A DNA stretch of 32,470 nucleotides from Rhodopila sp. (GTDB lineage: Bacteria > Pseudomonadota > Alphaproteobacteria > Acetobacterales > Acetobacteraceae): positions 1 to 32,470 of the forward strand of contig JANXLQ010000211.1 of the NCBI GenBank assembly GCA_025355085.1. Reading direction: 5' to 3'. A program made the translations under genes and the position numbers. The notes under the pieces are model-generated. The model had not been told where the DNA came from and did not search any database. It saw only the letters and a program-made list of their open reading frames with translations. Below, one piece after another: positions 15,078 to 32,470 of the stretch. Numbering within the stretch: the first letter of the stretch is position 1; every line of letters starts with the position of its first letter.

Positions 15078-15539
15078 ATGAAACGATATAAATTCGTTCT
15101 GCCAGGAGAAGGGGCCAATTACGATTGGACTAAAGACCATACATTCGTGAAGGTCTCGGCCGCTGATACTGGTGGCGCTTATTCGCTCATGGAAGATAAC
15201 CTGAAGCGTGAGTTCTCACTCGGCCTGCATCTGCATCGGCAGCATGCCGAAACATTCTATATTCTCGACGGTAATGTTGACTTCTACATCGATGGCGACT
15301 GGATGACAGCGTCCCCCGGTGCCACAATACATATCCCGCCTGGAACCCCGCATGCGGTTGTGCTGCCCGACGGACAAACTGGAAAGATGCTGATGGTTTT
15401 TCAACCATCCGGATTCGATCAATATCTCGCGGAACTTGCTCGGATGACCGAGGAAGATTTCGCCGATGAAAAACGCATGGAAGCCCTGAGCGAAAAGTAT
15501 GACCTCATCAGTTTGGGTGGAGTACCGTCTCGTACTTGA
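15078..15539 (+). CDS. Cupin-domain protein
   Basis: 'LGLHLHRQHAETFYILDGNVDFYIDG' and 'PGATIHIPPGTPHAVVLPDG' cupin motifs 1 and 2. Confidence 0.88.
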   Translation: MKRYKFVLPGEGANYDWTKDHTFVKVSAADTGGAYSLMEDNLKREFSLGLHLHRQHAETFYILDGNVDFYIDGDWMTASPGATIHIPPGTPHAVVLPDGQTGKMLMVFQPSGFDQYLAELARMTEEDFADEKRMEALSEKYDLISLGGVPSRT

Positions 15540-15596
15540 TCGGCCAGCGGTGCGAGCCGAGCGGTTGAGTGTCCTTATTGCCGGAAGCAAAATGGA

Positions 15597-16337
15597 ATGG
15601 AGTTTTTGGCATTACCGATAGATGAGACAGACGAAAGTTGGGTCAGTGCGTGGCGCCAGGCTCTGGACGCTGAAGAACTGGCACAGGCGGATCGGTTCCG
15701 GCGTGCGGCGGACCGCACTCGGTACATCGCCGCTCATGCTCTGTTACGAACAGCGATCAGTGCGGCCTCCGGTCGCCCGCCGGCATCCCTGACGCTGACG
15801 CGTGGACCCTACGGCAAGCCGTTTCTGCCTGCGACTCCGGCATTGCATTTCAATTTGACGCATACTGCCGGGTTGGTCGCGGTTGCATTACATAGCTCTC
15901 CTATCGGCTGCGATGCCGAACCAGCCAACCGGCACATGGAGGAAGGGGTGCTGTACATGATGGCAGCGGAGGAGCGCGGTTGGTTAAGGAGATTGCCTCC
16001 TGGTGCGGTCAGAGACAGGGCTTTCATCAAATTATGGGTAATAAAAGAGGCTTTTTCAAAAGCACTCGGTCTTGGTCTTTCCCTGGATCCTTCAGCTTAC
16101 GCTTTTGATTGCGCCGGGGAAAAAATGAACCTGTGCCGTGCCCCGGCCGCCCACACCCGCGATATTATCTGGAATTTTTCCACAACCCTCTTTGGATTAA
16201 ATCATTGGGTCGCACTGGCTGTTCAGGGCGATCCTGGTTCCGCCGGCCTACCTTCTCCCCGCCATTTGTCTGCCGGCGTTGTCGCCGGGGCCGCGACGGA
16301 TGGGTTGCCACTCCGGTTATCCGCCCTGCCCGGTTAA
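15597..16337 (+). CDS. 4'-phosphopantetheinyl transferase (Sfp-type)
   Basis: 'LTRGPYGKPFL..ALHFNLTHTAGLVAVAL', 'IGCDAE', 'FIKLWVIKEAFSKALGLGLSLD'. Confidence 0.92.
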   Translation: MEFLALPIDETDESWVSAWRQALDAEELAQADRFRRAADRTRYIAAHALLRTAISAASGRPPASLTLTRGPYGKPFLPATPALHFNLTHTAGLVAVALHSSPIGCDAEPANRHMEEGVLYMMAAEERGWLRRLPPGAVRDRAFIKLWVIKEAFSKALGLGLSLDPSAYAFDCAGEKMNLCRAPAAHTRDIIWNFSTTLFGLNHWVALAVQGDPGSAGLPSPRHLSAGVVAGAATDGLPLRLSALPG

Positions 16338-16348
16338 GCGTCGATGCA

Positions 16349-16384
16349 GATGCCTCCAGCCGGGTTGACCTGATTGGAGGCATC
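16349..16384 (+). terminator. Hairpin downstream of the phosphopantetheinyl transferase gene
   Basis: GATGCCTCCA / TGGAGGCATC 10-bp inverted repeat, 16-nt loop, 12 nt after stop 16337. Confidence 0.6.
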
Positions 16385-16628
16385 TATCCCTGGCATATAA
16401 TTACGAAATCCGTCTGAATATATCCGCTTCGGCATCACAGATGTTGAACGATCGTCCGCTGCCGGGTGCGGCAGAACCAGGTTGCATCGAACCTATATGA
16501 AGCCGAAGCGTGCCATCCGCACTTCGGCTAAAAATCGCGGGTACCGGGGCATTTTTCTACGTCGGTGTGTCAAAATGCGAAGGGCACAGGCCACCGATTT
16601 GGAGGTCTGTGCCCAACGGTAAAGCGTT

Positions 16629-16650
16629 CCAGTTCGGTTTCCCGAACTGG
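16629..16650 (-). terminator. Hairpin just downstream of the (-) strand outer membrane protein gene
   Basis: CCAGTTCGG-TTTC-CCGAACTGG; 9-bp perfect stem adjacent to stop at 16658. Confidence 0.65.
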
Positions 16651-16657
16651 CCCGGTA

Positions 16658-17560
16658 TCAGAAATGTATGCCAACGCCAAAGTACGGGGTCAGCTCGATG
16701 GCGCCGCCATCGTTCTTTGTGGGATTGCCGAACTTGTTATACCAATACTGAACGCCAACGAACGCGTCGAATACATGGGGTTTGGAGTGAAAGACCTCAC
16801 CAACATCAAGAATCAGGCTGCTATAGGTATAGAACTCTGTCTTCGTATGGACCCCAAGCGTGTCGGTACCCTTTGGGCCCGTTACGTTGAAGACGCCTTC
16901 CCAGCGCACAGGTAAGTTGATGAGGGGGTCCAGATACTGGGTCCAGGACAACTCGGTATTCCACGTTGGATTGTAGTTTTCGGACCTGTTCGTGAAACCT
17001 TGATGACCCCATTCTTTTGCGAAGTGGACGGCAAAGGTCACTGAGCCTGGCAGGTCGAAGTAGAAAATCGGGCCAAGCAGCAGGAACTTGCGACGAGGTG
17101 CGTACTGCGTGTCTTTCCAATTCAGATCGCCACCGAATTCAAACATCAGGTCTCTCACGCCCGGCATCGTGATCGGCGGAAGGCCAAAGCCGGTGGCGCT
17201 GACATCGCCACGATACGTGGTATAGAATTCCGTCGCGCCAGAGCCGCTAATCGCTGGGTCGTTTTTATCGGAAAACAGACCGGTAACTGTCAAGCTGTTC
17301 CAAACCATACCACCGGTATCGATATGTTCAAAATGGGCCATGTTCTTGACGATATCCTTGCCCTTATTCGGCTTGCCCAGAACGTTGATGCCAGGCTCGT
17401 GCGACAAGGGTTGGACACGAAACCAAACCTGGTCGTCGTACGTTACCGGGGGGGCCTCGAAACTCACGGCCGGCGGCGCGTCGGCAGCACGAGCAGTTGG
17501 GACGGCGAGTGCTGCCAGTGCGATTGCACCGGCTGCGAATATCCTGTTGGGCGTATTCAT
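16658..17560 (-). CDS. Outer membrane channel protein, Tsx-like / nucleoside-specific porin family
   Basis: Signal peptide 'MNTPNRIFAAGAIALAALAVPTARA', alternating beta-strand pattern, terminal aromatic '..TPYFGVGIHF', Tsx-like 'KPHVFDAFVGVQYWYNKFGN'. Confidence 0.7.
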   Translation of the reverse strand: MNTPNRIFAAGAIALAALAVPTARAADAPPAVSFEAPPVTYDDQVWFRVQPLSHEPGINVLGKPNKGKDIVKNMAHFEHIDTGGMVWNSLTVTGLFSDKNDPAISGSGATEFYTTYRGDVSATGFGLPPITMPGVRDLMFEFGGDLNWKDTQYAPRRKFLLLGPIFYFDLPGSVTFAVHFAKEWGHQGFTNRSENYNPTWNTELSWTQYLDPLINLPVRWEGVFNVTGPKGTDTLGVHTKTEFYTYSSLILDVGEVFHSKPHVFDAFVGVQYWYNKFGNPTKNDGGAIELTPYFGVGIHF

Positions 17561-17581
17561 GTTGTCTCCGTGAGCAAGTTG

Positions 17582-17600
17582 CGGCCGCTTAACGCGGCCG
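17582..17600 (-). terminator. Hairpin CGGCCGC-TTAAC-GCGGCCG between MBL and outer membrane protein genes
   Basis: 7-bp GC stem, 5-nt loop, between 17560 (start) and 17636 (stop); orientation ambiguous. Confidence 0.5.
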
Positions 17601-17635
17601 GTTTTGTGTTAAAAATCGGAACATGACGGCGTGAC

Positions 17636-18667
17636 TTAGACCCCGTAGGTGCCTTTGGCTTCGTTGAACTTCTGCACCTTCACAGTGGAATGGCTGATCA
17701 CGATGCGGGTCAGGTCGTCGCCGACCATCGTCCTGCCCTGCCAGTTCTTCTTCGCACGGCGCAGAATTTCGCTTACCGCGGTGGCCGGACGCTGGTCGTC
17801 AAGCAAATCGACGATGTGGCTGAATACCGCCAAACGGGGCTTGGTGCGGGCGAACACGATGCCCGCCTCTTCCGGCGATGTGTGGTGGTTCATGATGAGC
17901 TGATCGCCTTCCTGTAGCTTCTCGGACGCGACGCCCACCTCATGCACGATGACATCGCAGCCGACGCCATGTTTGATGAGATTCTCGTCGAACTTGGTGT
18001 CGCCCGACACCAGGACAGAACGGCCGGCATAGTCCACGCGGTAGCCGCAGGCGGGCTTGATCAGCGGGCCGTGATTCACCTCAAAAGCAGTGACCGTCAC
18101 GCCGTTGCGGTTGAAGATGACGCCATCGGTAGCGAATTCGTTGGCCTTGATCCGGGTAGCGGTGTCGTCGATATGCTCATCCGCTTCGCGAATGCGGATG
18201 TCGTCGCTGAACGCATCACGCATGGAATTGCAGAGTTTGGTCGTGCCGATCGGGCCGTTCACTTCCATCATTCCGGCGCGCTGGCCGAAGGTCGGATGCA
18301 GATAGCCCGTCATCCAAAGGTCCGGCAGGCCAATGACATGGTCGGAATGGAAATGCGTCAGGAAGAACGCGTCGATCTTGCCCATCGGCATGCCAACCTG
18401 GGTCAGGCGTACGGCGCAACCGCGTCCGGCATCGATCAGGAAACTGAGGCCGCCGGCCTGGATCAGAGTGCTGTTGCCATATCGGATGGTGTTAGGGACC
18501 ACCGAACCCGTGCCAATCAGCGTGACCGCGATCTCGTCCTTCCCAACCGGGGGCAGGCCCGTCGAGGTCGCCGCCATCGCGCTAACAGCCGGCAGGGCTG
18601 CCCAACCGATAAGGGATGCGCCAACAAGCCCGCGGCGCGTGATCCCGGATTTCTGCTCAGACGACAT
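17636..18667 (-). CDS. MBL-fold metallo-hydrolase with Tat signal (RNase Z-like fold)
   Basis: 'SGITRRGLVGASLIGWAALPAVSAMA' Tat leader; 'FFLTHFHSDHVIGLPDLWMTGYL' HxHxDH motif; 'VLVSGDTKFDENLIKHG'. Confidence 0.88.
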   Translation of the reverse strand: MSSEQKSGITRRGLVGASLIGWAALPAVSAMAATSTGLPPVGKDEIAVTLIGTGSVVPNTIRYGNSTLIQAGGLSFLIDAGRGCAVRLTQVGMPMGKIDAFFLTHFHSDHVIGLPDLWMTGYLHPTFGQRAGMMEVNGPIGTTKLCNSMRDAFSDDIRIREADEHIDDTATRIKANEFATDGVIFNRNGVTVTAFEVNHGPLIKPACGYRVDYAGRSVLVSGDTKFDENLIKHGVGCDVIVHEVGVASEKLQEGDQLIMNHHTSPEEAGIVFARTKPRLAVFSHIVDLLDDQRPATAVSEILRRAKKNWQGRTMVGDDLTRIVISHSTVKVQKFNEAKGTYGV

Positions 18668-19661
18668 GATAGAGTTCTCTTTCCTGATTGTTCTTGGGTG
18701 CCAGCAACCCGAATTCCCGGGCTGCATCGATAACTTCTTTCTTGTCCGCACCATCGAGGATCAGGACGAGTGTGGAATTCCGCAGACCGGCCGGCCAGGC
18801 CGCCAGCCGCGTGGGCGGATGAAACATGTGCTGCACGCCATGCACGGCGAGCGGACGCTTTTCGCCGCGGATGCGCACGATACCTTTCGCCCGCAGTAGA
18901 GCCGCGCCATACGTCTCGGCGATCGCGCCGAGGAAATCCGCTAAATCCACGAATTCAACCTCATCCGCGAGGATCAGGCTGACCGTCGAGATACGGCTGG
19001 TATGACCTGATGTGGCGGCGAAGGGTGCCTTGCGTCGCGTCGGAGTCAGCAGCGCCAGATCGTCGGCGGATGCCCGCGTGAGTTCATCCGGGTCGATTTC
19101 GCCGTTTAAAACCGGGATCAGCTTTGCGTTCGGATTGAGTTCGAACAACATCTCCCGCAGGGCTGTGCCCACCTCGATATCCGGCTTTGTCAGAAGCAGC
19201 CGGTCAGCCATCGCCACCTGTTGCACCGCTTCCGGATGGCGCCGCAGCGTGTCCAGACCGTGGGCGGCATCGACGGTGGTGACGACCAGTCCCGGCGTGT
19301 AACCGCGCAGGAGGACTTTGCGATCCAACAATGTTTGTAGAACCGGTGCGGGATTCGCGAGGCCGGTCGTCTCGATGATCACGCGGTCGAAGTGCGGGAT
19401 CTCGCCTAAGATACGGCGGTTGTCCAACCCCTCCAGCGTGCCGGAAATAGTGCCGTCAACCATGCAGCACACGCAGCCCTGTGGCAGCAGCACCACGTCG
19501 CCGTCCAACCGTTCCATCAGCATGTGGTCGAGGCCGACTTCGCCGAATTCATTCACAATGACGGCCGTGTTGGCGAGGCCGGGCTGCCGCAGCAGGCGGG
19601 AGATCATTGTCGTCTTACCGCTGCCAAGAAAACCGGTAACGACCGTTACAGGAGTTTTCAT
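18657..19661 (-). CDS. CobW/COG0523-type G3E GTPase
   Basis: 'VTVVTGFLGSGKTTMISRLL' P-loop, 'LLPQGCVCCMVDG' CxCC motif, 'IIETTGLANPAPVLQTL'; C-terminal CobW domain. Confidence 0.93.
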   Translation of the reverse strand: MKTPVTVVTGFLGSGKTTMISRLLRQPGLANTAVIVNEFGEVGLDHMLMERLDGDVVLLPQGCVCCMVDGTISGTLEGLDNRRILGEIPHFDRVIIETTGLANPAPVLQTLLDRKVLLRGYTPGLVVTTVDAAHGLDTLRRHPEAVQQVAMADRLLLTKPDIEVGTALREMLFELNPNAKLIPVLNGEIDPDELTRASADDLALLTPTRRKAPFAATSGHTSRISTVSLILADEVEFVDLADFLGAIAETYGAALLRAKGIVRIRGEKRPLAVHGVQHMFHPPTRLAAWPAGLRNSTLVLILDGADKKEVIDAAREFGLLAPKNNQERELYHVV

Positions 19662-19999
19662 AACCTCCCGTTCCAACTCGCTCGAAACCGCGCTCGGGCT
19701 GGCCATCATTGCTGAATTTCTCGCAGCGTGTCCCACACTTCGCTATGTCCTTCGATGTCCAGTTAACATGAACGTGATCACGCCAAACTACAGATAACAG
19801 AGACGTGACAATATCGCAAGGCGAGCCATTTCAAAATGCGCTTATTCGTCTCGGAATCCACATTGGTGCGACAAGCGATTCCCTCCCGGCGCTCTGCGGC
19901 AACCCAATCGGCCGGAAACATTAACCTGAGGCAGTATCACGAGCGATAATTCGCTAAAATTCTCGCATGCTGGGAGTCGTTTCGGATATTGCGTCACAC

Positions 20000-20024
20000 A
20001 AAGGGCGCCACTCGGGCGCCCTTT
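20000..20024 (-). terminator. Rho-independent-like hairpin for the OmpA-family gene
   Basis: AAAGGGCGCC-ACTCG-GGCGCCCTTT; 10-bp perfect stem about 24 nt past stop (20048). Confidence 0.8.
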
Positions 20025-20047
20025 CCGTCCCATAGGTAAGCTGAAAC

Positions 20048-21244
20048 CTACCTGATGATGATTTCGACCCGACGGTTCTGCGGCTCCCGCACGCCTGCGG
20101 CGGTCGGAACCAGCGGATGGGTTTCACCGAAACCCTGGATCGTAATAGCGCTCTTGGGCACGCCGTCCTTTACCAGTTCCGCAGCGACCGACTGAGCGCG
20201 TCGGATCGACAGGCTCTGGTTGTGCTGGGCGGTGCCCGACGCGTCGGTATAACCATTCACTTCAAGACGGGTGTACTGCACCTTCGAGGAGTTCGCAGCG
20301 GCTTCAGACACGATCTGCCGCGCACGGCTGGTCAGGTCCGCCTTATCCCAGTCGAAGAACACGATGTACGAACGCGACACCGGCGACGGAGCCACCGCCG
20401 CCGCAACCGGAGCGGCCGGGGCAGCGGCCGGAGCCGGGGCGCCGAACGCGTAGCGCACGCCGATCATCACGCCGTAATTCCACTCATTGCCATAGTCGTG
20501 AAAACTCGGGCTTTTGATGGTCCCGAAGGCGCTGCCCGGCGCGAAGCCTAGGGTAAACTGGCCATGCTGCTTGAAACCTTGCGGCAGTCCCGTCATACGA
20601 AAATCGGTGGTCAACGCCAAACCGGGAACGCCCGGAACGTCGTAGCTGAAACCGGCTATGCCCTGGGCGGCCAGCACGACATCAGTGGAACTAAAGGTGC
20701 TGAAGATAGTATTGGCGGTGCCGATGGGGGGGCCAAATGCGAGGGGGCCGCCGGAGCGGGACACGTTCGACCAATCCACCGTCGAGATGCCGACGCCGAC
20801 GCCGATATACGGCGTGATCGGCAGGCCAAGGTCGGCTTTCAGTCCATTGAAGTCATAGATGACGTTCGCCATAAGCGAGGTCTTCCGTTCCTCGCCGGAA
20901 AAAATCAGACCGATCGGGGTGGATGGGGCTGGAGCAAAGCGAGACACGCCATTTTGGCGGTACGCCCCTTCCAATTCCAGGCGGATGCCGTTCGTGAAGC
21001 CGTAACCGACAGCACCGGCGAGAGTCACACCTGGCTTGTAAACCGTGTTGCCCGCGTTAGTGAGGTTGAGCGCAAACCCCGGCGCCCCTGCAAAATTTTG
21101 AGCGATGGATTTCTGCTCAAGAGGAGACGAAACCCAATTCCCTCCGCCTCCCAGACTCACGTAAAAGCCATTGACCGGCTCAGCCGACGCGGCCACGGGC
21201 GCCGCCAAAAGGGAAATTACTGAAACAGTATGACGGAGCTTCAT
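20048..21244 (-). CDS. OmpA-family protein: N-terminal outer membrane beta-barrel plus C-terminal peptidoglycan-binding domain
   Basis: Signal peptide; 'VNGFYVSLGGGGNWV' barrel start; Ala/Pro linker; 'LEVNGYTDASGTAQHNQSLSIRRAQSVAAELVKDGVPKSAITIQGFGETHPLVP...NRRVEIII'. Confidence 0.93.
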   Translation of the reverse strand: MKLRHTVSVISLLAAPVAASAEPVNGFYVSLGGGGNWVSSPLEQKSIAQNFAGAPGFALNLTNAGNTVYKPGVTLAGAVGYGFTNGIRLELEGAYRQNGVSRFAPAPSTPIGLIFSGEERKTSLMANVIYDFNGLKADLGLPITPYIGVGVGISTVDWSNVSRSGGPLAFGPPIGTANTIFSTFSSTDVVLAAQGIAGFSYDVPGVPGLALTTDFRMTGLPQGFKQHGQFTLGFAPGSAFGTIKSPSFHDYGNEWNYGVMIGVRYAFGAPAPAAAPAAPVAAAVAPSPVSRSYIVFFDWDKADLTSRARQIVSEAAANSSKVQYTRLEVNGYTDASGTAQHNQSLSIRRAQSVAAELVKDGVPKSAITIQGFGETHPLVPTAAGVREPQNRRVEIIIR

Positions 21245-21560
21245 GTTTGGTCTTTCAGTTGATTACAATATTATTTACTAATCACCCCGGTCGCGATGCG
21301 CAACCGCATCCGACCGGCTTTGACCGGAATTACTCCATATTCAAAAGAAATTCTTGAATGCTGTGGTACAAAAAACCCTGAATTAATGGGTAGGCGGATT
21401 CAATGTTAAATCAAGACAATTTAGGGAACGACTTCCCAGCCAATCGGCCCGAAAGCCAAACCGCCGACCGGTGAAGCATGCTGCCACCAACTAACTGGAA
21501 ACGATCCGGCGGTAACGACGCCTCATCGACCGCGCGATAAAGGCTCCCTGATCCCGATAG

Positions 21561-21580
21561 GCGCCCCTCATTCAGGGCGC
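21561..21580 (-). terminator. Hairpin GCGCCC/GGGCGC downstream of ABC transporter gene
   Basis: 6-bp GC stem, 8-nt loop, about 24 nt past stop at 21604. Confidence 0.5.
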
Positions 21581-21603
21581 ATTATGGCCCCGTCGTTTGG
21601 TGT

Positions 21604-23211
21604 TCATTCCACTTGCCGGCCGTCCTCGAGGCAAATCATTTGGTCGGCAATGCCAGCATATAGAGTGTCCCTGCTCGCAACGACGATCGCTCGGCCGCTC
21701 TCGCGCATACGCGGGAGCATTACCTTAAAGTAGCGTTCACGAACCGCGGGGCTTTGGCCGGCGTCCCACTCATCGAGCAAAAGCAATGGACGGTCTTCCG
21801 CGACAGCCACAAGAAGCGCGATTCGCGCCCGCACGCTTCGCGACAGCCCCTCGGCGCCCGGGATGCGTCCGGCCCTGATCTCATCGAATCCGCCAAGATC
21901 CAGTTCCTCGATCAGACTCTGCACGTCCGGCCGGGCAATGTTCCGAATATGCATACCGGCGAACAACACAGGATCGGCGGTCACGAAGGCAGCCAGATCG
22001 CGATTCCGCCGGGCGTCGGCCAAAACGCCGTCGCGCACTATCGCCCCACCTTCCGGCGCTGCCAAACCCGCCAGCACGGTGAGGACAGATGTCTTCCCAG
22101 AGCCTATACCGCCGACGACGAACAGGATGCGCCCGGGCGTGACGCTACAGGAAACCGGCCCCACGATAGCCCCCGGCTGCCCGGGGTGCGCGGCATAGCG
22201 GAAGATCGCGTCCCGCAACTCCAGTGACGTAAATTCCGGGCCGGCAGTGGTCTGCGGTGGTGCCCAGCGTTGCGCAGCGCCACGTAACGCCGCCTCAAAC
22301 GCCGCAAGGCGGTCGGCGGCAGCGGACAGTGCGCTGAGGCGGGGGATGGCTTCGATCCAATCGAATGGAACAAGAAATGCGATCAACAGCATCGCGACCG
22401 CCTGATCGGCTGGTACATTGGAAAGTCGCGTGGCGCCAACCACGAGGGCTGCCAGCAGCGGCCTTCCCATCGCGGCGGCTGCGCCTTCGGTCGCGATCCA
22501 GGCAAGGCGGCGTGTCCGCGCGGTTCGGCGTGCCGTAATCGCGACCTCCAGCGGCGTTTCTTTTATAGATGAAGGCAACGGTATCGATGATGACGCAGGC
22601 GCGGCGAGAAGCGACTGCCTGATCCCGCGGAAGGTCTCGTCCATGGCGCGATCGATGCCTGCGTCGTCGATCTGCGCCGCCAAACTACCGCCCCGCGCGC
22701 GAACGACGAGCGCCGTTGTCGTGACCGCCCCGAGCTTGAGGGAGAGAAGCAGTGCTGCGCCGGCGACCGGGTTAATCAGCAGCGTGCCCATAACGCACAC
22801 CACCGTGGTCAGAAACGATTGAACCGCGGTCGGCGCCTCTGCTCCCAACCGCGCCAGACCGCGCGGCATGGCCACCAGAGCGTCGCGCATCGTGTCCTTG
22901 TCGATCTCGGCAAGTGCCGGCGGCTCAAGCCCGGCATAGCTCGTCAGGATGGCGCGGCGTATCTGGCGTGATAAACCTGCCATCCATTGGCCAATCCGCG
23001 TGCTGGCCCAACTTTGCCCGAAGCTGGCGGCAGTGATCGCAAGCAGCGCGCCTGCCAGACCGGCCGGCATCTCCCAAACCGGATCGGCAGTCAGACGCTC
23101 CGACAAGCCAATGACAACAGCGCCCGTCGCAAGCGCCACGGCCCACATCGCGATCAGCACACGCATGCGCCCAATGCGTATCCTGGCGTTTAGCAGACGC
23201 CAGAGATTCAT
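21604..23211 (-). CDS. ABC exporter half-transporter (TMD-NBD), intact Walker A; PvdE/SyrD/McjD-like NBD
   Basis: TMD helices; Walker A 'VVGGIGSGKTSVL'; 'LLLLDEWDAGQSPAVRERYFKVMLPRM' resembling DEWxADQxP of cyclic-peptide/siderophore exporters; signature region 'EGLSRSVRAR'. Confidence 0.87.
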   Translation of the reverse strand: MNLWRLLNARIRIGRMRVLIAMWAVALATGAVVIGLSERLTADPVWEMPAGLAGALLAITAASFGQSWASTRIGQWMAGLSRQIRRAILTSYAGLEPPALAEIDKDTMRDALVAMPRGLARLGAEAPTAVQSFLTTVVCVMGTLLINPVAGAALLLSLKLGAVTTTALVVRARGGSLAAQIDDAGIDRAMDETFRGIRQSLLAAPASSSIPLPSSIKETPLEVAITARRTARTRRLAWIATEGAAAAMGRPLLAALVVGATRLSNVPADQAVAMLLIAFLVPFDWIEAIPRLSALSAAADRLAAFEAALRGAAQRWAPPQTTAGPEFTSLELRDAIFRYAAHPGQPGAIVGPVSCSVTPGRILFVVGGIGSGKTSVLTVLAGLAAPEGGAIVRDGVLADARRNRDLAAFVTADPVLFAGMHIRNIARPDVQSLIEELDLGGFDEIRAGRIPGAEGLSRSVRARIALLVAVAEDRPLLLLDEWDAGQSPAVRERYFKVMLPRMRESGRAIVVASRDTLYAGIADQMICLEDGRQVE

Positions 23212-24854
23212 TGTGCAACCTCGTCCGGCGAAGCGAATATCCCATCCTGCATACGAAGGACCCGGTCGGCTGCCGCGATCACGCCGGCATCGCCGGTGGC
23301 GACGATGCATGTTCGTCCGCGTGCCCGCGCTTCCTTCAACGTTTCGACGAAAGCATTGCGAAAACGAGGTTCCAGACGCGCGGCACGCTCATCGTAAAGG
23401 CGGATCGGACGATCCTCCAATTCCGCGATCACGATCGCCAGGCGAGTGCGTTCCGATTGACCGAAGACGAACGTCGCGTTCCCATCTTCCGGCGGGTGCA
23501 ACATTTGCGATGAGAGGTCGAAGCGGGCAAGCAGCGCCTCTGTCCGCGATGCATCGGCAGACGCTGAGAGGAAGCGTGGCATCGCGTCGCGATCCAACAC
23601 GCCGCCGCACAGTCCGCGCAACATCTCCGGGGGAACCGAGCGTCCGTCCAGCAGAACGGCTCCGTTATCCGGCGGGGTCAGGCCGCACAGTAGATGCAGC
23701 AGCGTCGCGCGATCATCCTGGTTGGGGCCAGTGAGGGCAACGATCTCGCCGCGATGCAACTCCATATCCAACGGCCCAATAGCGGCGAGGAATACGCTCG
23801 GTGTATCCCGCTCCTCGACCCGCGCCTGCCGGAACGCGATCGTGGTCCACCGCGCCGGCGCCACGGGGGCGAAGGTTTCCCGCGCGGGAAAGCGCTCAGC
23901 GATGGCGTCGATCTGCGCAGATGCCGTCCCGATCCTTCCAAATGCGAGGTAGGCGGCGGATGCCTGGCGTGCGTGATGCAGTGTCGCGGCAACGATAATA
24001 AGCGCGCGCGTCCAATTATCATCCTTGGTACTGCCAGACCCGAAGGTCAGCAGAATGATGACGAGCAGAAAAACCAGCCATCCAAAAAGGCCTGCTATGC
24101 GGGCGTGTGCTCGCGCGTGGACCGATGCGGCGCGGGTGGCGTCGTCAACGGCCGGCCACAGTGCCTGCGTGCAAAAGTCAGCCTGATGCGTGCTGGCCAG
24201 CCGCAACGAGGCACCGGCCTTCAGCACGCGCGCGGTTACACGGTCGAACGCCGCTTCCGCATGAGCGAGCACGGTTTCACTTGCGCGCACCCGCGAGATT
24301 TCGCGGCGGAGCAGCATCGTACCCACGACGGATAGAAGCACAACTATCATAAGGGCGTTCGGCTCATAGAGACTGAGCCAAGCCGCAGTGACCGGCAGTG
24401 CCGCGAGCGCCGGCAGTGCCACGGCCGCTTGGCTCGCATCCTCGCGCATGCCGGTCGCGATACGGGCCAAGGTTTTGCCCGGCCCATCAGAGCCTAGGTG
24501 GCGCCAATCCGCGGCGAGCACTCGCCGCGTCCCAGTCACCAGCACCGTATCGCTTGCGCGCTCGGCCAGCGCCAAACCGGCCATACGTGTCCAACGGCCC
24601 AGCAGAAAAGTTCCCGCAATTGCCGCGAGAATCCAAACCAGGTCCGCCCGCCAGGGTCGATCCTGGCCATATACCGCGTCCGTAACACGCAAGACCGCAA
24701 AGCGATCCAGCACAGCCGTCAGGGACGCAAGCGCCAGGACAATCCAGGCAAGTCGCGGCTCGTTTTTGCCGATAACGCTCGCCACGACCGCTGCCGCCGA
24801 GTCAAAGCCCGGCGTGGACGCGAGTTGACGCCACATGCTTCGCTCGCGGGCCAT
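23208..24854 (-). CDS. ABC exporter half-transporter (TMD-NBD) with degenerate Walker A
   Basis: TMD helices; 'GEIVALTGPNQDDRATLLHLLCGLTPPDNGAVLLDGRSVPP' in place of GxxGxGKS/T; 'FGQSERTRLAIVIAELEDRPIRLYDERAARLEPRFR'. ATGA overlap with the next gene. Confidence 0.85.
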   Translation of the reverse strand: MARERSMWRQLASTPGFDSAAAVVASVIGKNEPRLAWIVLALASLTAVLDRFAVLRVTDAVYGQDRPWRADLVWILAAIAGTFLLGRWTRMAGLALAERASDTVLVTGTRRVLAADWRHLGSDGPGKTLARIATGMREDASQAAVALPALAALPVTAAWLSLYEPNALMIVVLLSVVGTMLLRREISRVRASETVLAHAEAAFDRVTARVLKAGASLRLASTHQADFCTQALWPAVDDATRAASVHARAHARIAGLFGWLVFLLVIILLTFGSGSTKDDNWTRALIIVAATLHHARQASAAYLAFGRIGTASAQIDAIAERFPARETFAPVAPARWTTIAFRQARVEERDTPSVFLAAIGPLDMELHRGEIVALTGPNQDDRATLLHLLCGLTPPDNGAVLLDGRSVPPEMLRGLCGGVLDRDAMPRFLSASADASRTEALLARFDLSSQMLHPPEDGNATFVFGQSERTRLAIVIAELEDRPIRLYDERAARLEPRFRNAFVETLKEARARGRTCIVATGDAGVIAAADRVLRMQDGIFASPDEVAQ

Positions 24855-24879
24855 TTAATGACAGGGCCGCGCGCCGAAA

Positions 24880-25569
24880 TCAGACGGCAGCCGGCTCCAC
24901 ATCGGGGTTGGTGGTATGCACCGGCGGGGCCACTGCCGCTTCCGCAGGTGCCGCATCTGGCTTGCCCTTTGCAATGATCTTGTTCGACACCCTGTTACGC
25001 AGCGAACGGGCAAACGTCACACCGTTATCGAATTCACGACGCATGGCGGCACGGGCCTTGGTCGGATCGAAATCGATCAGGCTCTCATGGGTTTCCAGAT
25101 GCTCGTGAAACACGCTACCGATCGCATAGGTCATTGCGCCACCAAGCAACGAGGACCCTGCGGCGCCGGCCAGGCTGCCGAGGCCGGGAATGAGCTTCAG
25201 CCCACTGACGAGGCCAGAGGCGAGCGTCACCGGAAGCAAACCGCCAGCCAAAGCGAGAACCGCAGCTTTCGCAGCGTTTTCTCGCAGTGAGACACCATAG
25301 ATTTCGCAAATTTGGTGAACCATGCGAATCTGAATTGCAACCATCGCCGCCATGTCCACGCCGGGAATCGGCACGAGGCCGACCGCCATGGCCGCGATGA
25401 CATGATTCTTGATTACGTCGGTCGAATCCAACGCTGCGTTGAGCGCGTCGTCTGTCGCCTCTGCCGACGGCACAGTGGCTTCAACTCTGTCAGCGGCTAC
25501 GGCTGTGTCGAGAGTTTCAACTGTGTCAGCGGCCACGGCTGTGTCGAGGGTTTCAACTGTGTCAGTCAT
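24880..25569 (-). CDS. DUF697/YcjF-like membrane-associated protein
   Basis: 'IKNHVIAAMAVGLVPIPGVDMAAMVAIQIRMVHQICEIYGVSLRENAAKAAVLALAGG' typical DUF697 segment with hydrophobic helices. Confidence 0.75.
   Translation of the reverse strand: MTDTVETLDTAVAADTVETLDTAVAADRVEATVPSAEATDDALNAALDSTDVIKNHVIAAMAVGLVPIPGVDMAAMVAIQIRMVHQICEIYGVSLRENAAKAAVLALAGGLLPVTLASGLVSGLKLIPGLGSLAGAAGSSLLGGAMTYAIGSVFHEHLETHESLIDFDPTKARAAMRREFDNGVTFARSLRNRVSNKIIAKGKPDAAPAEAAVAPPVHTTNPDVEPAAV
25489..25560. repeat. 36-bp in-frame tandem repeat (x2) encoding DTVETLDTAVAA units
   Basis: Units 25489-25524 and 25525-25560 differ at two positions (C/T and A/G). Confidence 0.9.
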
Positions 25570-25868
25570 GGTCAAGCAACTCCGAATGAATATGCGGAAT
25601 GCGCTATCGAATAGCGGAACCGCGCTGTTAAGGCATCGGTAACATCGCACAACCGCGGTAATTCCGCAACCAATTCGAGGCAGTTTAGGTCGTGTCGTAA
25701 CAGGTTTCCTGTGCATACGTCTTCAGAACCGGCCCAACCGGGCGGACTTCGCCACCCTCTCTCCCCTCATGGCCGCATGTGTAACGGAAAACGATCTGTT
25801 CTCCTTTCCAGCAATTGAACCCTGGCAGTCGTATGAGTACCTATTATCTTCGATGGTGTAGTCGCGAT

Positions 25869-25953
25869 GGAACCGGAGGCAGGGCCAATCATCGGCGGGA
25901 GTCCGGACTTTTCGCATCTGCGGATAAACTCGCCCGCCAAAGCCTCCGGTTCC
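25869..25953. other. Nested inverted-repeat structure, possible structured RNA or palindromic element
   Basis: Outer arms GGAACCGGAGGC/GCCTCCGGTTCC (25869-25880/25942-25953) and inner GGCGGGAGT/ACTcgCCCGCC (25894-25902/25928-25938). Confidence 0.55.
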
Positions 25954-26362
25954 CTGGCACCCTGGCCGTTGCGAAGCGTCAGACGAGCAGGGCGTCATTG
26001 TAGTCCTCGGACCCGGTCGGGGCTTCCAACTCGAGTTTCCCGGGTGATCGTCGGATCAAATCGATTATATCAAAAAAATCCTATGGCCGCGATCATTTCC
26101 AAAAATCTCCCCCATACAATCGCACCTACGGCAAGACCGGTTGTTCGAAATTGAGTAATCTGACTACACCGTGATGATCGCGCCATCGGACCAATGGTCG
26201 GCGCGTCCTCGCCATTTGGGCGTTTATTACCCGCCAAACGCCGACGGGCCACCTGCCGACACCTTCTCCGCGCCGGCAAAATTGATCATTAAGGCTTGTC
26301 AAAATCGCGTGATGTCTGTTATCTGTTCGCACGCAGTTAAAAACTTAGGGACCCCGGAGAAA

Positions 26363-28204
26363 ATGATTTTCCACGATTCCATCGTCCTCGGGGCCGGTCC
26401 CGCTGGCATGCAGATGGGCTACCTCCTTGAGACTGCGGGCCGCGACTACCTGGTCCTTGAAGGGAGCGAGAGGGTCGGCAAATTTTTTACGCAGTACCCC
26501 CGTCACCGCCGTCTGAATTCCTTTAATAAGCGGTTTAACTGGTTCAGCGAACCCGACTTCAACCTACGCTTCGATTGGCATTCGCTGCTAACCCACGATT
26601 TTTCCTTCCCGTTCCGCGGGTACTCGAAGGATATTTTTCCGCAAGCCGATGCTCTGGCGCAATACCTGCAAGATTTCCGCGATCACTTCGGCATCAAGGT
26701 TCAGTTTAATACACGGGTTACATTTATCGATCGTGATCCGGAGACGCGCCATTTCATCCTCACGACCGGTGACGGCGAGGAATATCGCTGCCGGACGCTG
26801 CTGATGGCGACTGGCCCGTTGAAAGGCGACACCCCGGATATTCCTGGAATCGAGCATGCCAGCAGCTACGAGGATCATGACGCTGACGCTGAGATTTATG
26901 AAAATAAGCGTGTCCTGATTATCGGGGGCGGTATCTCGGCGTTTGAGACAGCCAACCACCTCGTTGGCTCCGCCGCTGCCATCACCGTCGCGCTCGGCCC
27001 CAAGTTCATGAAGCATGCATGGCGGACCCATTTTGCCGGCGACTTGCGGGTGCATGACAATACGCTGCTCGATATGACGGCGCTGAAGATGATGCACGGG
27101 ATTTACGGGCTCATTATAACGCGCATTACCAAACAGGAAGACGGCACACTACGGGTATATTATCAGGAAGAAATGCCGCACTGGACGAAACCCGGTGTCA
27201 TTGAGGGTTGGATGCCGGTGGATCACGTCATCCGTTGCACCGGCTGGACATTTGTCAATCCGGAACTGTTTGCGCTGTCGGTTCGGCCACAAACGGTATG
27301 TGAAGGCCAGTATGCTCTGTTGAACTCGACCTGGGAAAGCACCACCCCGGATCTATTTTTTATCGGCACCGCCATGGCTGGCCGCAATCTGCGCAGCCCT
27401 ACGACGACTCTGCATGGCTTCCGCTATGCGGTTCGCGCCGTGTTCAACTTCCTTGAGCAGCGTTATGAAAATGTCCCGACCCCCAATCGGGTTTTCCCAC
27501 TAAAGACGCGGGAGGATCTGGAGGTTCTGGGGAAGGAAATGATCAGGCGTGTCAGTATCTCGTCCGGTCTTTTCCAATGCAACAGCATCCTGGGCGATGC
27601 CCTGGTGTTCGATAAAGACACCGGAGAGGTCCGGGTATTTTATGAAATGCCGATCGACTATTTCCTGGAAAGCCCCGAATTCTCTGAAAAAACAGTGATG
27701 TATTTTACGCTGGAGCTTGGCTTCAACAACTTTCCCGGCCAGGATCCAAACGTATTTGTTCGTCGCAACGACCCGTCCCGGCCCGGCTGTGTGGGCGTTA
27801 TCCATCCGGTGGCCCGCCACTACGAAAATGGAAAATTCGTCAAAGGCCGCAGCACGCGCGGCTCAGTCGGCAGCCGATACGACGAAGATTATAAAGGCTT
27901 CGAACACGAGATGGACGACGTGAAGCCACGCAACATCGTGTTGAATTTCATCAACGAGGTGGCTGGCGTCACTGACGAAATCTTCTCTGAGAATCATTTT
28001 TTCAATACTGAGGAACGTGGCGGCTTCCGGGAGCTGGAACCCGGGGAAGTACTAAGCAATCCGGGCCTGCCGGAATGCGCACTTGTGGTCGGCGGCGAAC
28101 AAGTTTCGGACTTTGGACACTTCAGGCAGGTGAGCCGTCGTGCCGATGGCACGATCCCACCCTGGGTCCATGCCAAATTGTTCGAGATTTCAGAGATTCA
28201 TTGA
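26363..28204 (+). CDS. FAD-dependent oxidoreductase, FOXRED2-like / flavin monooxygenase superfamily
   Basis: 'DSIVLGAGPAGMQMGYLLETAGRDYLVLEGSERVGKFFTQYPRHRRLNSFNKRFN', second dinucleotide motif 'KRVLIIGGGISAFETANHLVG', 'LFFIGTAMAGRN'. Start ATG 26363 preceded by GGAG. Confidence 0.85.
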   Translation: MIFHDSIVLGAGPAGMQMGYLLETAGRDYLVLEGSERVGKFFTQYPRHRRLNSFNKRFNWFSEPDFNLRFDWHSLLTHDFSFPFRGYSKDIFPQADALAQYLQDFRDHFGIKVQFNTRVTFIDRDPETRHFILTTGDGEEYRCRTLLMATGPLKGDTPDIPGIEHASSYEDHDADAEIYENKRVLIIGGGISAFETANHLVGSAAAITVALGPKFMKHAWRTHFAGDLRVHDNTLLDMTALKMMHGIYGLIITRITKQEDGTLRVYYQEEMPHWTKPGVIEGWMPVDHVIRCTGWTFVNPELFALSVRPQTVCEGQYALLNSTWESTTPDLFFIGTAMAGRNLRSPTTTLHGFRYAVRAVFNFLEQRYENVPTPNRVFPLKTREDLEVLGKEMIRRVSISSGLFQCNSILGDALVFDKDTGEVRVFYEMPIDYFLESPEFSEKTVMYFTLELGFNNFPGQDPNVFVRRNDPSRPGCVGVIHPVARHYENGKFVKGRSTRGSVGSRYDEDYKGFEHEMDDVKPRNIVLNFINEVAGVTDEIFSENHFFNTEERGGFRELEPGEVLSNPGLPECALVVGGEQVSDFGHFRQVSRRADGTIPPWVHAKLFEISEIH

Positions 28205-28293
28205 AACGCTGACCGGCGAACTGAACCGCTCGCCAGCGGCGGGCAAGGCCGGGACGCGTAACGACCCGTCTGGATGCACAGGAGACGACCTTA

Positions 28294-29862
28294 ATGTTGA
28301 AGCATCTCGCAGGCGGCGACCGAGCCAGTCCCCTGGCATTCTGGGGGGGCGCACTGGCCGTCGCGGTCGGCGTGGCGCTCCACCTGCCGATGTTCTTCAT
28401 GGCGGCGGATATGGGCTACAAGCTCGTGGGTATGGAGATGGATGGCTCCATGACGGTTGGCATGGTGTTGATCGTCATCGGCACCCTGGCGTCGGGATAC
28501 GGACTGTTGCCGCGGGCCGCGGTTACCCGATCCGCACCGGCCGAGTTGGCTGACCTTGCCGATGCGCTACCCACGGGCGGCCGCGAGCGGATCACGCCGG
28601 CACATTGGGGCCTGCTGTTGACGCTCACCTTCGCCCTGATCATCGACACCATGAAGCCCGCCTCGCTCGGTTTTGTTATCCCGGGCATGGCGGCGGAATA
28701 CGGCCTGACCCGCCCGACCGCTGCGATCCTGGCATTCTTTGCGCTGTCCGGCACTGCGCTGGGTTCGGTGATTTGGGGCATCATCGCGGATCGCCTGGGA
28801 CGGCGGGCGGCGATTCTGTTAGCCGCGATCATGTTCATCGGCACATCGATCTGCGGCGCGATGCCGTCCTTCGTCGCCAACATCGTCATGTGCTTCCTGA
28901 TGGGGATGTCGGCAGGCGGCATGTTGCCGATCGCTTATACCTTGCTCGCCGAATTGATGCCGTCGCGCCACCGCGGCTGGCTGGTCGTGCTGGTCGGCGC
29001 TGTCGGCATGATCGCGGGATATCTCGCGTCCAGTTTGTGCGCCGCGCTGCTGGAGCCGGTGTTTGGCTGGCGCATCATGTGGTTCATCGGCCTGCCCACC
29101 GGGGTCATGCTAATCGGGCTCAGCCGTTTCATACCCGAATCGCCGCATTTTCTGCTGCTGCACGGCCGTGTTGCCGAAGCGGTGCGGGTAATGAAGCGGT
29201 TCGAGATGGGACTGCCCGCCCACCGTGGTGCCGGAGCAACGGCACCTGATGTTCCCGGCCTGCTGACGCCATCCTTTGTCGGAACGACGGTTAGTCTAAA
29301 TCTTGCGGCAATCGCCTGGGGTCTGGTGAATTTCGGCCTGATTCTCTGGCTTCCCGCCGATCTGCGCGCCAAGGGTTATAGCGTCGCCAGTTCCGATGCG
29401 CTGCTCGCCCGATCCGCCCTGCTCGCCCTGCCGACAGCAGCGATCACGGCGTGGCTGTATGCGCGATGGAGCACCAAGGGAACGCTGCTGCTGCTTTCGG
29501 CGGTCACCGCCCTCGGGCTGGTGGGTATTTCGCTGCTCGGCAGTAGCCTTCCGCTGCCCGACGGCAGCCCTGTTGTCCTTATCAGCCTGTTGATGATCGG
29601 CACCAACGGCATCATCGCCGTGCTGCTGCCCTACAGCACCGAAAGCTATCCGTTGCATATCCGGGGCCGCGGCACCGGCTTCGTTGCCGGCAGCAGCAAG
29701 TTCGGGGGCATCATTGTGCAGGTCGTCAACCTGGCCGCCATGGTGCCGCCACTGGCGACGGCGGCGATCGTGCTGGTCGTACCAGTCGTGGCTTCGGCCG
29801 TGCTGATCGGCAAGTTTGGTGGGGAAAGCCGGGGCCGGCGGCTCGACGTGCCGGCGGAGTGA
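28294..29862 (+). CDS. MFS transporter with N-terminal membrane extension
   Basis: RBS AGGAGACG; MFS motif A 'GSVIWGIIADRLGRRAAILL', 'RHRGWLVVLVGAVGMIAGYLAS', 'PESPHFLLLHGR', 'YSTESYPLHIRGRGTGFVAGSSKFGGI'. Confidence 0.92.
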   Translation: MLKHLAGGDRASPLAFWGGALAVAVGVALHLPMFFMAADMGYKLVGMEMDGSMTVGMVLIVIGTLASGYGLLPRAAVTRSAPAELADLADALPTGGRERITPAHWGLLLTLTFALIIDTMKPASLGFVIPGMAAEYGLTRPTAAILAFFALSGTALGSVIWGIIADRLGRRAAILLAAIMFIGTSICGAMPSFVANIVMCFLMGMSAGGMLPIAYTLLAELMPSRHRGWLVVLVGAVGMIAGYLASSLCAALLEPVFGWRIMWFIGLPTGVMLIGLSRFIPESPHFLLLHGRVAEAVRVMKRFEMGLPAHRGAGATAPDVPGLLTPSFVGTTVSLNLAAIAWGLVNFGLILWLPADLRAKGYSVASSDALLARSALLALPTAAITAWLYARWSTKGTLLLLSAVTALGLVGISLLGSSLPLPDGSPVVLISLLMIGTNGIIAVLLPYSTESYPLHIRGRGTGFVAGSSKFGGIIVQVVNLAAMVPPLATAAIVLVVPVVASAVLIGKFGGESRGRRLDVPAE

Positions 29863-29869
29863 CGACGGT

Positions 29870-29915
29870 GATGTCCGGCCGGTTGCTGACGATGCGGCTG
29901 CCGCGCCCGGACATC
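29870..29915 (+). terminator. Hairpin downstream of MFS gene
   Basis: GATGTCCGG / CCGGACATC inverted repeat immediately after stop 29862. Confidence 0.5.
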
Positions 29916-30042
29916 TCATTCCTTGCCTCAAGAAGGCTTAAGACAAATTAGAAAAATGCCCATCGCATGAAGCCATCCAAGTAGCCTAAAGCGTTGCGAT
30001 TTCGACACCGTGATGATATCTAACCAAGTAGGAGTATTCTTA

Positions 30043-30063
30043 ATGCGTGGTGCCGCGGCATGA
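30043..30063 (+). other. Putative six-codon leader ORF (MRGAAA) overlapping the adenylation gene start
   Basis: ATG CGT GGT GCC GCG GCA TGA preceded by GTAGGAG; its TGA overlaps the ATG at 30060 (ATGA). Confidence 0.4.
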
Positions 30064-31475
30064 TCGTCAGTGATGTTTTAGGCAATTGCGCCACGGACGC
30101 AAAAACCCGCGACAATTTCATCACCGATGGTTCGTTTACCGTTGCGTACCACGAGCTTTGTGCGCTGCTTGACGAAACGGCTAAAGCCCTGGCCGGTCAC
30201 GGCGTTCAACCCGGCGATTGCCTAGCCGTCGAATGCGCCAATTCGGTTGCCGGCGCGCTTCTTCTGCTCACCTTGATGCGTGACGGTTACAGTTTCGTCC
30301 TGGTACCACCCGCCGTTAACGCCGAGATCAAGCCCACGCCGCTGTTTTGCCGCTTCAGCATCGCGGTCGGCGCCGGCGTCTCGCTGCAACCGGCGGCGGC
30401 GTTCATGTCGGTAACCGCGAATCCGGAATGGAACCGCAAAAGCATACCGTCGGCGAAGTTGTTACTACGTACCTCCGGTAGCATGGGCACATCGAAGATC
30501 GTCGTGCATGGCCATGACAAGCTGATGGGCAATGCGGCAAACTGCGTGCGCAAGTATGGTTTTCGGGCAGAAAGCCGCTGCGTCATCCCGGTCCCGATCG
30601 CGCATATGTATGGGTTCGGCGCAGAGTTTCTACCCGCCATTCAGGTCGGCGCATCGATCGACCTTCAGGACAAGACAAACATCATCAAATACCTGGACCG
30701 CGAAAAGCGTTTCCAGCCGACCATTGCGTTCGTCACACCAGCCATCTGCGAAATGCTTTTGAAAGCGTATAAAAGTCCGCGCACCAATTATGAGGTCATC
30801 GTCACGTCCGGCCAACGCATCAGCGAGGACGTGTTCGCGGCCTTCGATGAACGGATCGGCGGGCGGTTGATCAATCAGTACGGTAGTACCGAAATGGGCG
30901 CCACCTCGGCCTGCGACCCGGGCGACAGTTTCGAAATGCGCAGCCAGACCATCGGCAAGCCGATGCACGATGTTCAGTTGCGGATCACCGACGGCGACCC
31001 CGGCGAACTGAACGTGCTGCACCCGTTTGGCTATGACGGCTATCTCGACGACGCCGGCGAATGGATTCACATAGCCGAACCCAATGCCTGGTATCGGACC
31101 GGGGATCTGGCCAAGGCCGATGCAGAAGGCGCGATCAAAGTACTTGGACGCGCCGGTACCAGCGTCAACCGGGATGGCTATCTCGTCCTGCTCGAAGATA
31201 TCGAGCGCATCATCGAAAAGCTGCCGGATATCTTGCAGGTCGTGGTGACCGCCACGCCCGGGCTATCGGGACACGGGCAGCGTATTGCGGCCTTCTGCGT
31301 CCCCAAGGCTGACGCGGTGTTGGATGGACAGCAGATCCGCGCGCGGTGCTTCGATTTACTACCGCGCTACGCCTTACCAGACGAAGTCCATGTGGTGGAA
31401 ACCATGCCGTTGCTCGCCAGCGGCAAGGTGGACCGGCGGACGTTGGCGGCCGAGCTGAATCATATGCAACAATGA
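30060..31475 (+). CDS. Stand-alone adenylate-forming enzyme (AMP-dependent synthetase/ligase, A domain)
   Basis: 'LLRTSGSMGTSKIVVHGH', 'LINQYGSTEMGAT', 'WYRTGDLAKADAEGAIKVLGRAGTSVNRDGYLV', 'LLASGKVDRRTL'. Confidence 0.92.
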   Translation: MIVSDVLGNCATDAKTRDNFITDGSFTVAYHELCALLDETAKALAGHGVQPGDCLAVECANSVAGALLLLTLMRDGYSFVLVPPAVNAEIKPTPLFCRFSIAVGAGVSLQPAAAFMSVTANPEWNRKSIPSAKLLLRTSGSMGTSKIVVHGHDKLMGNAANCVRKYGFRAESRCVIPVPIAHMYGFGAEFLPAIQVGASIDLQDKTNIIKYLDREKRFQPTIAFVTPAICEMLLKAYKSPRTNYEVIVTSGQRISEDVFAAFDERIGGRLINQYGSTEMGATSACDPGDSFEMRSQTIGKPMHDVQLRITDGDPGELNVLHPFGYDGYLDDAGEWIHIAEPNAWYRTGDLAKADAEGAIKVLGRAGTSVNRDGYLVLLEDIERIIEKLPDILQVVVTATPGLSGHGQRIAAFCVPKADAVLDGQQIRARCFDLLPRYALPDEVHVVETMPLLASGKVDRRTLAAELNHMQQ

Positions 31476-31485
31476 AGTCGAACCG

Positions 31486-31764
31486 ATGATCGAAGACACG
31501 ATTGAACAACTACGCAAGCTGGTGGCTGAACGTCTGGACGTGAACCGGACGCTGGACGAAATCACCTCCGACGCCGCGCTTCTTGGCGGTGGGCTGGGTC
31601 TGGATTCCCTGGCACTCGTCGAACTCGTCAGTTTGACCGAGGAATGCTTCGGTATCGAATTTGGCGAGAACGAACTGAATATGGACTCTTTCGCCAGCAT
31701 ACGTTCGCTTGCCACTGTTGTGGTGGAAATGCGAGCGCGGGATGTCCAGCCCATCGCAGTATGA
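31486..31764 (+). CDS. Acyl/peptidyl carrier protein
   Basis: 93 aa; phosphopantetheine site 'GGGLGLDSLALVELVSLTEECFGIEF'; acidic helical. Confidence 0.9.
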   Translation: MIEDTIEQLRKLVAERLDVNRTLDEITSDAALLGGGLGLDSLALVELVSLTEECFGIEFGENELNMDSFASIRSLATVVVEMRARDVQPIAV

Positions 31765-31906
31765 GGGTCCGGGACACGGCCGCGCTGTCGCAGGGTACGG
31801 CGCCCCTGCCCCGAATTGGCCGGCCATGATGTGTTGTTTCGGCTCCCATCCTGATCGTCAGGACAACTCCCCACCCGCGTCGTTTTGCAGCATTGGCCTG
31901 GACTGA

Positions 31907-32470
31907 ATGGAATTGCATCGACTAACCACGGAAGAGATGCTCGCGGATTGCCTGCTGGATCCTGAAATTCAGTTCCGGCACCCGGTATCTCCCCATGCCC
32001 TTTCCCCGCGGGCGGCGTGCCTGACGGGCGCGACCGGCTTCCTGGGCGGGTATCTGCTGCATGACCTGATGACTAAGACCGGCGCGGACGCCTATTGCCT
32101 CGTGCGTGGGACGGACGGGCCAGAGGCGTATGCACGTCTGGTCCGGCACCTCACCGGATATGAGCTTTGGGACGAAGCGTTTCGCAAGCGGGTCCATGTC
32201 ATACAAGTGCAGGACCTCGCCGACCGCCAATTCGGCATGACAGACGCCGATTTTCGTGAACTCGCCGCCACGGTGGATGTCATCTTTCACAGCGCCGGCT
32301 CGCTTAATATGGCGTTCCCCTACGATCGCCTGAAGCGAACCAACGTTACGGGCACGGTGGAAGTGCTGCGTCTTGCGGCGGCCGAACAAACGAAGCCGGT
32401 CCACTTCCTGTCCAGCCTGGTGGTGTTCTTCACGGACGCGCACATCGCGGATTCGCTGCTGCGCGAATCC
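31907..32470 (+). CDS. Thioester reductase-like NAD(P)-binding protein (3' end outside window)
   Basis: Manual translation of 188 codons open to the window edge: MELHRLTTEEMLADCLLDPEIQFRHPVSPHALSPRAACLTGATGFLGGYLLHDLMTKTGADAYCLVRG...VDVIFHSAGSLNMAFPYDRLKRTNVTGTVEVLRLA; TGATGFLG Rossmann motif. Not in the ORF track because it is unterminated. Confidence 0.88.
   Translation, partial: MELHRLTTEEMLADCLLDPEIQFRHPVSPHALSPRAACLTGATGFLGGYLLHDLMTKTGADAYCLVRGTDGPEAYARLVRHLTGYELWDEAFRKRVHVIQVQDLADRQFGMTDADFRELAATVDVIFHSAGSLNMAFPYDRLKRTNVTGTVEVLRLAAAEQTKPVHFLSSLVVFFTDAHIADSLLRES

Follow-up and report, generated by a model that had tools for sequence, protein, structure and literature searches.

The last three genes of the stretch of DNA analyzed here (32,470 nucleotides of the Rhodopila sp. 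assembly GCA_025355085.1, contig JANXLQ010000211.1, referred to below as the window) encode an AMP-forming acid ligase (A), an acyl carrier protein (ACP), and a thioester reductase (R). Since domains of these kinds are fused in carboxylic acid reductases (CARs), the question arises as to whether the three free-standing proteins form a split CAR or serve a biosynthetic pathway of another kind, involving a nonribosomal peptide synthetase (NRPS).

The A-ACP-R genes and the block shared with a sister genome

The three genes are separate and co-directional, and their products match all the families for which searches were recommended in the preliminary description of this DNA, namely AMP-binding, PP-binding, and NAD_binding_4/TIGR01746 (Table 1). 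The GLDSL site of the carrier and the TGATGFLG motif of R, corresponding to the GxxGxxG nucleotide site, are both present in the window proteins. The contig ends exactly at position 32470, which means that R is truncated by the assembly, and a search of the same genome (G000) failed to identify the remainder of the gene. The 3' extension also recommended there was provided by a sister Rhodopila MAG (G010, locus L039), which carries the genes in the same A-ACP-R order along with a complete R and the downstream genes. The sister R, with a length of 409 aa, is fused to nothing: the continuation of R into a fused NRPS or PKS, which had been envisaged, was not found.

All the genes tested from 15078 to 32470 are collinear with the sister contig (G010:C115), and no match was found on the latter to the genes located left of 15078, a position which was therefore taken to bound the shared block on the left. 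The initial extent of 30060-32470 thus proved to be too small: collinearity with the sister contig begins at 15078, and the cluster extends past the window onto another contig of the same genome (C178), which bears out the idea that the pathway continues beyond the window. From these sequence comparisons, all the genes of the shared block may be regarded as candidate members of the pathway, and the trio almost certainly belongs to a larger dissociated NRPS cluster, where it would make up the left half of the core biosynthetic genes. The FAD-dependent oxidoreductase probably starts downstream of position 26171, homology beginning at residue 42. An oxidoreductase of this kind (about 600 aa) adjoins A in the window (26171-28204) and occurs in two copies in L039 (4011-5870 and 6204-8144) and L040 (12548-16126), and DUF697-related proteins are encoded near the clusters in five loci. 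On the left of the cluster, the window carries type II secretion genes (T2SSE, T2SSF, T2SSG, and pseudopilin-like open reading frames, 4996-12263) without any match on the sister contig, as well as a multicopper oxidase gene followed by a SCO1/SenC gene (2347-4992).

Table 1. Genes of the window which lie in the block common to the two Rhodopila genomes
Feature	Position	Strand	Remarks
Cupin protein, left edge of the shared block	15078..15539	+	92% identity on G010:C115; Cupin_2
4'-Phosphopantetheinyl transferase (PPTase), likely dedicated to the cluster	15597..16337	+	PF01648/PF22624
Protein without Pfam family, kept in the sister	16658..17560	-	59% in G010
Metallo-beta-lactamase-fold protein	17636..18754	-	Relatives adjoin clusters in L040 and L072
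CobW-type GTPase	18657..19736	-	PF02492; 85% in G010
OmpA-family outer membrane protein	20048..21244	-	In sister block
ABC half-transporter	21604..23310	-	In sister block
ABC half-transporter	23208..24854	-	In sister block
DUF697 protein, recurs near related clusters	24880..25716	-	In sister block
FAD-dependent oxidoreductase	26171..28204	+	PF13738; 74% to L039
MFS transporter, nearest to aromatic-acid/H+ symporters (below cut-off)	28294..29862	+	85% to L039
A, free-standing AMP-forming acid ligase	30060..31475	+	471 aa; Pfam AMP-binding 115.7 bits, AMP-binding_C
ACP, free-standing carrier protein	31486..31764	+	92 aa; PP-binding 37.3 bits; GLDSL site
R, thioester reductase, N-terminal 188 aa	31907..32470	+	NAD_binding_4 134.5 bits; TIGR01746 partial

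The PPTase had been proposed to prime the carrier, and its distribution ties it to the cluster. Among the 33 genomes of the genus, a close orthologue was detected only in G010 (62% identity between the two), where it is located on the contig carrying the cluster. The orthologue and the cluster co-occur in two of these 33 genomes, the others harboring distant PPTase relatives or none. The link proposed is therefore well supported, and the PPTase is likely to be dedicated to the cluster.

With TIGR01746, the fragment of R present in the window scored 145.5 bits, a value which cannot be judged alone in a truncated protein, and the complete R of the sister passed the cut-off over its full length (269.5 versus 213.35 bits). 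In the latter protein, the nucleotide site and the YxxxK pair are intact; this pair reads YGKSK in the sister and most relatives and YKQSK in L075 and L081. Weak matches to epimerase and 3-beta-HSD families were also obtained, as would be expected if a sugar epimerase or SDR had come by chance to lie beside an ordinary acyl-CoA ligase. Such a grouping is extremely improbable, since the ligase of the sister shares 84% identity with A and the family is kept in some 20 further relatives; the full-length match of the sister R, the gene order kept in distant genomes, and the synteny block shared with the sister also speak against it. The identification of R as an unrelated sugar epimerase or SDR was rejected on these grounds.

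The NRPS module and its neighbors

In the sister locus (L039/L083), as read in L039, the genes are arranged in the order FAD-MFS-A-ACP-R-ST-[MT+A-MT-T]-[TubC_N-C]-P-ATPase. The sulfotransferase gene (ST) located directly after R in L039 belongs to PF03567, and the module consists in the sister of a methyltransferase (MT) fused to A-MT-T. In the genome under study, contig C178 carries the NRPS module (88-89% identity to the sister), the condensation-like protein C (84%), and the P-type ATPase (84%); next to these come genes for a pair of ABC half-transporters, a Band_7 protein, and a periplasmic binding protein. Judging from the order and spacing of the genes in the sister, the window contig (C27) would join C178, with about 2.5 kb missing in between. 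The adenylation and carrier domains expected of an NRPS module are both present in the A-MT-T module of L039 and, from residue 391 on, in that of G000:C178. Genes of the Band_7/SPFH type recur near the related clusters (L089:9981-10883, L040:2963-3904, L043:4785-5735, L047:723-1580, L078:2418-3455, and L079:3171-4247). The ATPase is P1B-like: in L039:19118-21304, L089:4059-6260, and 12 further loci, the DKTGT motif is kept and the CPC metal-binding motif of heavy-metal pumps is absent.

The module ends with the C-terminal tail EEGEI in six of the seven complete copies and in the genome under study, and the condensation-like proteins examined carry a TubC_N domain (48.9 and 63.2 bits). TubC_N domains and short charged C-terminal tails (SLiMs) are known to form pairs of docking elements at interfaces between carrier and condensation domains, and TubC-type domains have also been reported to precede thioester reductases (PMC9113145). 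By sequence, the EEGEI tail and the TubC_N domain would be the two halves of a beta-hairpin docking pair of this kind. In the condensation-like protein itself, the sequence H-[I/N]-x-x-[Y/F]-D takes the place of the HHxxxDG motif in all six copies (L039, L045, L047, L071, L073, and the genome under study). Since the second histidine of this motif is the active-site residue (PMC10212144), the catalytic histidine is absent from all six copies, and the protein may either catalyze an unusual condensation or act as a scaffold organizing its partners.

The pocket code of the module, which was read by hand, is DVWHISLID in L044, L045, L047, L071, and L073, DLFNNALTY in L072 and L043, and DLLNVAWIL in Rhodopila. 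We tentatively take DVWHISLID, the code of most of the Methylococcales copies, to be a serine-like pocket and DLFNNALTY to be an alanine-like one, the Rhodopila code being left unassigned; a text search of the literature for two of the pocket-code strings gave no match.

Affinities of R and its co-occurrence with the NRPS

The complete R of the sister scored 245 bits against the model for the NRPS MxcG (NF038078) and 105 bits against the CAR model (NF041592), which means that the sequence of R is closer to NRPS release domains than to the reductase domain of CARs. The two features expected of a CAR are both lacking: A, T, and R do not form a single polypeptide, either in the window or in the sister, and R is not closest to its CAR counterpart.

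The distribution of R among the related loci points in the same direction. A, R, and the NRPS are found together in eight loci: the window (with C178), L039, L044, L045, L047, L071, L073, and L081, where the condensation-domain gene (positions 39243-42461 of its contig) is cut by the contig end. A occurs with neither R nor NRPS in view in L074, L078, L079, and L080, the last two of which were viewed over 15-20 kb only, and these four loci all carry the ATPase and sulfotransferases. The NRPS without any R in view was found in L072 and, among the partial loci, in L043 and L082, and R without any NRPS in view only in L075, the contig of which is just 7.3 kb long. Although this co-occurrence is based on few genomes, some of which are related, the occurrence of R with the NRPS in eight loci and its absence from the four loci with A but no NRPS in view favor a role of R in the NRPS pathway over one in a self-contained A-ACP-R reductase. 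In view of this pattern and of the higher MxcG score, R is more likely to be a dissociated reductive-release or tailoring enzyme of a small NRPS pathway. It is fairly probable that R is tied to this pathway and does not simply reduce the acid in an A-ACP-R system, and the explanation as a whole deserves the same degree of confidence. As regards the split CAR initially proposed, the separateness of the three proteins therefore stands, and the CAR as a functional unit is not borne out, R being nearer to the NRPS reductases and tracking the NRPS module.

In a true split CAR, A would load the acid onto the ACP and R would reduce the same acyl-ACP to a free aldehyde, and the downstream NRPS genes might use this aldehyde or form a separate branch. 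The adjacency of A, ACP, and R in the window and the sister is what this scheme predicts, the ACP adjoins R in seven loci (the window, L039, L044, L045, L047, L071, and L073), the in-trans reduction of a ligase-loaded acyl-ACP has a precedent in TamA/TamH (PMC9594044), and the short contig of L075 carries R, A, and a chorismate lyase gene but no NRPS. Set against this are the four loci in which A is kept without R and NRPS, indicating that A and ACP can do without R, and the far higher score of R with the NRPS R model than with that of CARs. The split CAR is thus a possible reading, ranking second to the NRPS pathway, and on the whole a rather unlikely one.

Several of the relatives encode a 273-aa protein without any Pfam family (L045:11489-12310 and relatives), in which residues H86, E156, H208, and E264/E266 are conserved, and which forms a single polypeptide with A in L073:8669-10816 and with ACP in L040:11429-12502. 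The model of this protein (pLDDT 86.5) resembles VOC-fold enzymes such as methylmalonyl-CoA epimerase and extradiol dioxygenases, with a low TM-score, and the protein is probably a metalloenzyme acting with A and ACP. One might suppose that A and ACP feed this or other tailoring proteins, and that R, being unconnected to them, only offloads the aminoacyl group from A-MT-T in the form of an amino aldehyde or alcohol; the two fusions and the related clusters with A and ACP but no R and NRPS would be in line with this idea. Neither of the Rhodopila genomes encodes the VOC-like protein, however, and the seven loci in which the ACP adjoins R tell against it, which makes this explanation very unlikely.

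Distribution of the A family

The A family has a patchy distribution: it was found in two of the 397 genomes of the order of the window, in 15 of the 311 genomes in the order to which a Methylococcaceae locus belongs, and in two of the 399 genomes of an Acidobacteriia class. Records labelled cyanobacterium and Chloroflexi also contain A-family loci. In the tree, the Rhodopila A groups with Acidobacteriia and a "cyanobacterium" bin (support 100/97), apart from the nearest Methylococcales group. This grouping and the patchy occurrence suggest that the cluster has probably undergone horizontal transfer. The locus L043 is filed under the cyanobacterium bin, and since its ligase groups with Acidobacteriia, this bin may be mislabelled. 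In five Methylococcales loci, a HemN/HutW-related radical SAM gene is located near A or ACP (L074:7323-8645, L075:6451-7200, L077:7031-7605, L080:11924-13237, and L082:9687-10967).

Candidate substrate of the ligase

The catalytic motifs of A are kept, and when the sequence was compared by eye in alignments to solved structures, it was found to lack the aspartate at the position which binds the amine in amino-acid-activating domains. The ligases nearest in structure to the predicted model (pLDDT 82, pTM 0.73) activate malonyl, oxalyl, salicyl, dihydroxybenzoyl, and chlorobenzoyl substrates. With the aryl-acid AMP ligase families, A remains below the required scores (96.6 of 783 bits for NF008192 and 94 of 723.55 bits for TIGR02275). 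A chorismate-lyase-like gene (PF01947, Rv2949c-like) is present in three related clusters (L075, L080, and L081), and since a lyase of this type would make 4-hydroxybenzoate, an aryl acid may be the substrate of A; the MFS transporter of the window is nearest to aromatic-acid/H+ symporters, under the cut-off of that model. Neither UbiC-type nor Rv2949c-type chorismate lyases were found in G000 or G010, which counts against a 4-hydroxybenzoate source in Rhodopila, and with malonyl- and oxalyl-CoA ligases also among the best structural neighbors, the case for an aryl specificity is weak. We therefore propose an aryl acid, of the same type as 4-hydroxybenzoate, only tentatively and with slightly less than even confidence.

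Proposed pathway

The scheme proposed is based on the gene order, the domain identities, the docking tail, the loss of the histidine, and the co-occurrence of R and NRPS, all read from sequences, and the chemistry of every step is inferred. The PPTase would prime the ACP and the carrier domain of the NRPS. A would activate a carboxylic acid, the preferred candidate being an aryl acid such as 4-hydroxybenzoate, and load it onto the ACP, and the separate A-MT-T module would load and methylate a small amino acid. The condensation-like protein would dock on the module via its TubC N-terminal domain and the EEGEI tail and, having no catalytic histidine, might condense the building blocks unconventionally or only organize the partners. 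Working in trans and using NAD(P)H, R would convert a carrier-bound thioester into an aldehyde or alcohol and release the product. Its target might be either the acyl-ACP loaded by A or an NRPS-linked intermediate; the adjacency of ACP and R in seven loci is also consistent with the former. The sulfotransferase would then sulfonate the product, and the ABC, MFS, and P-type ATPase transporters might move the product or a co-substrate.

A more far-reaching proposal, to which we give little credence as yet, is that several phyla of lake bacteria might have in common a hitherto undescribed product family made by a fully dissociated assembly line, in which two carrier-bound blocks would be joined without a normal condensation domain (an amine capturing the aldehyde made by R, for example), sulfonated, and handled by the P1B-like ATPase without CPC.

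Comparison with known systems

Literature searches covering mainly open-access papers, on free-standing A/ACP/R sets, methanotroph NRPS clusters with sulfotransferase and P-type ATPase, and 4-hydroxybenzoate combined with a thioester reductase, brought up no system matching this one and no cluster with the same gene set. The cluster therefore appears to be undescribed; among the known methanotroph metabolites, tundrenone, which is named in papers that were found, came into consideration as a possible explanation. The cluster is real and conserved, and domains which are normally fused are made here as separate proteins, presumably for a small peptide-like molecule. A hitherto uncharacterised biosynthetic pathway would be common to lake-dwelling methanotrophs, Acidobacteriota, and Acetobacteraceae, which are not related to one another.

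In the tambjamine YP1 pathway, TamA loads a carboxylic acid onto an ACP and the separate reductase TamH makes the aldehyde in trans (PMC9594044). The system predicted here from the genes is similar in that the reductase converting an ACP thioester into an aldehyde is not on the same polypeptide as the ligase. In TamA, however, A and ACP are fused, and TamH is a reductase of the AAR family with an active-site cysteine, fused to a transaminase, whereas the three proteins are all separate here and the reductase is an NRPS-type one. If R acts in trans on the ACP, A, ACP, and R would constitute a small modular toolkit for converting acids into aldehydes without a large CAR protein.

The fabclavine cluster likewise encodes a thioester reductase (FclG) apart from the assembly line as well as a condensation-domain-like protein (FclL), but its pathway is that of a PUFA/PKS-like polyamine, the comparison being by description rather than by sequence (PMC9113149). 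The terminal R of NRPSs such as MxcG and that of CARs would share with the present R the NAD(P)-dependent reductive release of a carrier thioester, but A, T, and R are fused in them and free-standing here. In EntE/EntB, PchD, DhbE, and CahJ, which are among the structures nearest to the A model, an acid ligase is also separate from its carrier; A is only about 20-22% identical to these ligases, however, as well as being shorter (471 aa) and below the cut-offs of the curated families. Lastly, the module ending with EEGEI and its partner starting with TubC_N recall the TubC_N/SLiM pairs previously described (PMC9113145), from which they differ in that the docked condensation domain is without the active-site histidine. 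This conserved loss raises the testable question as to how the building blocks are joined.
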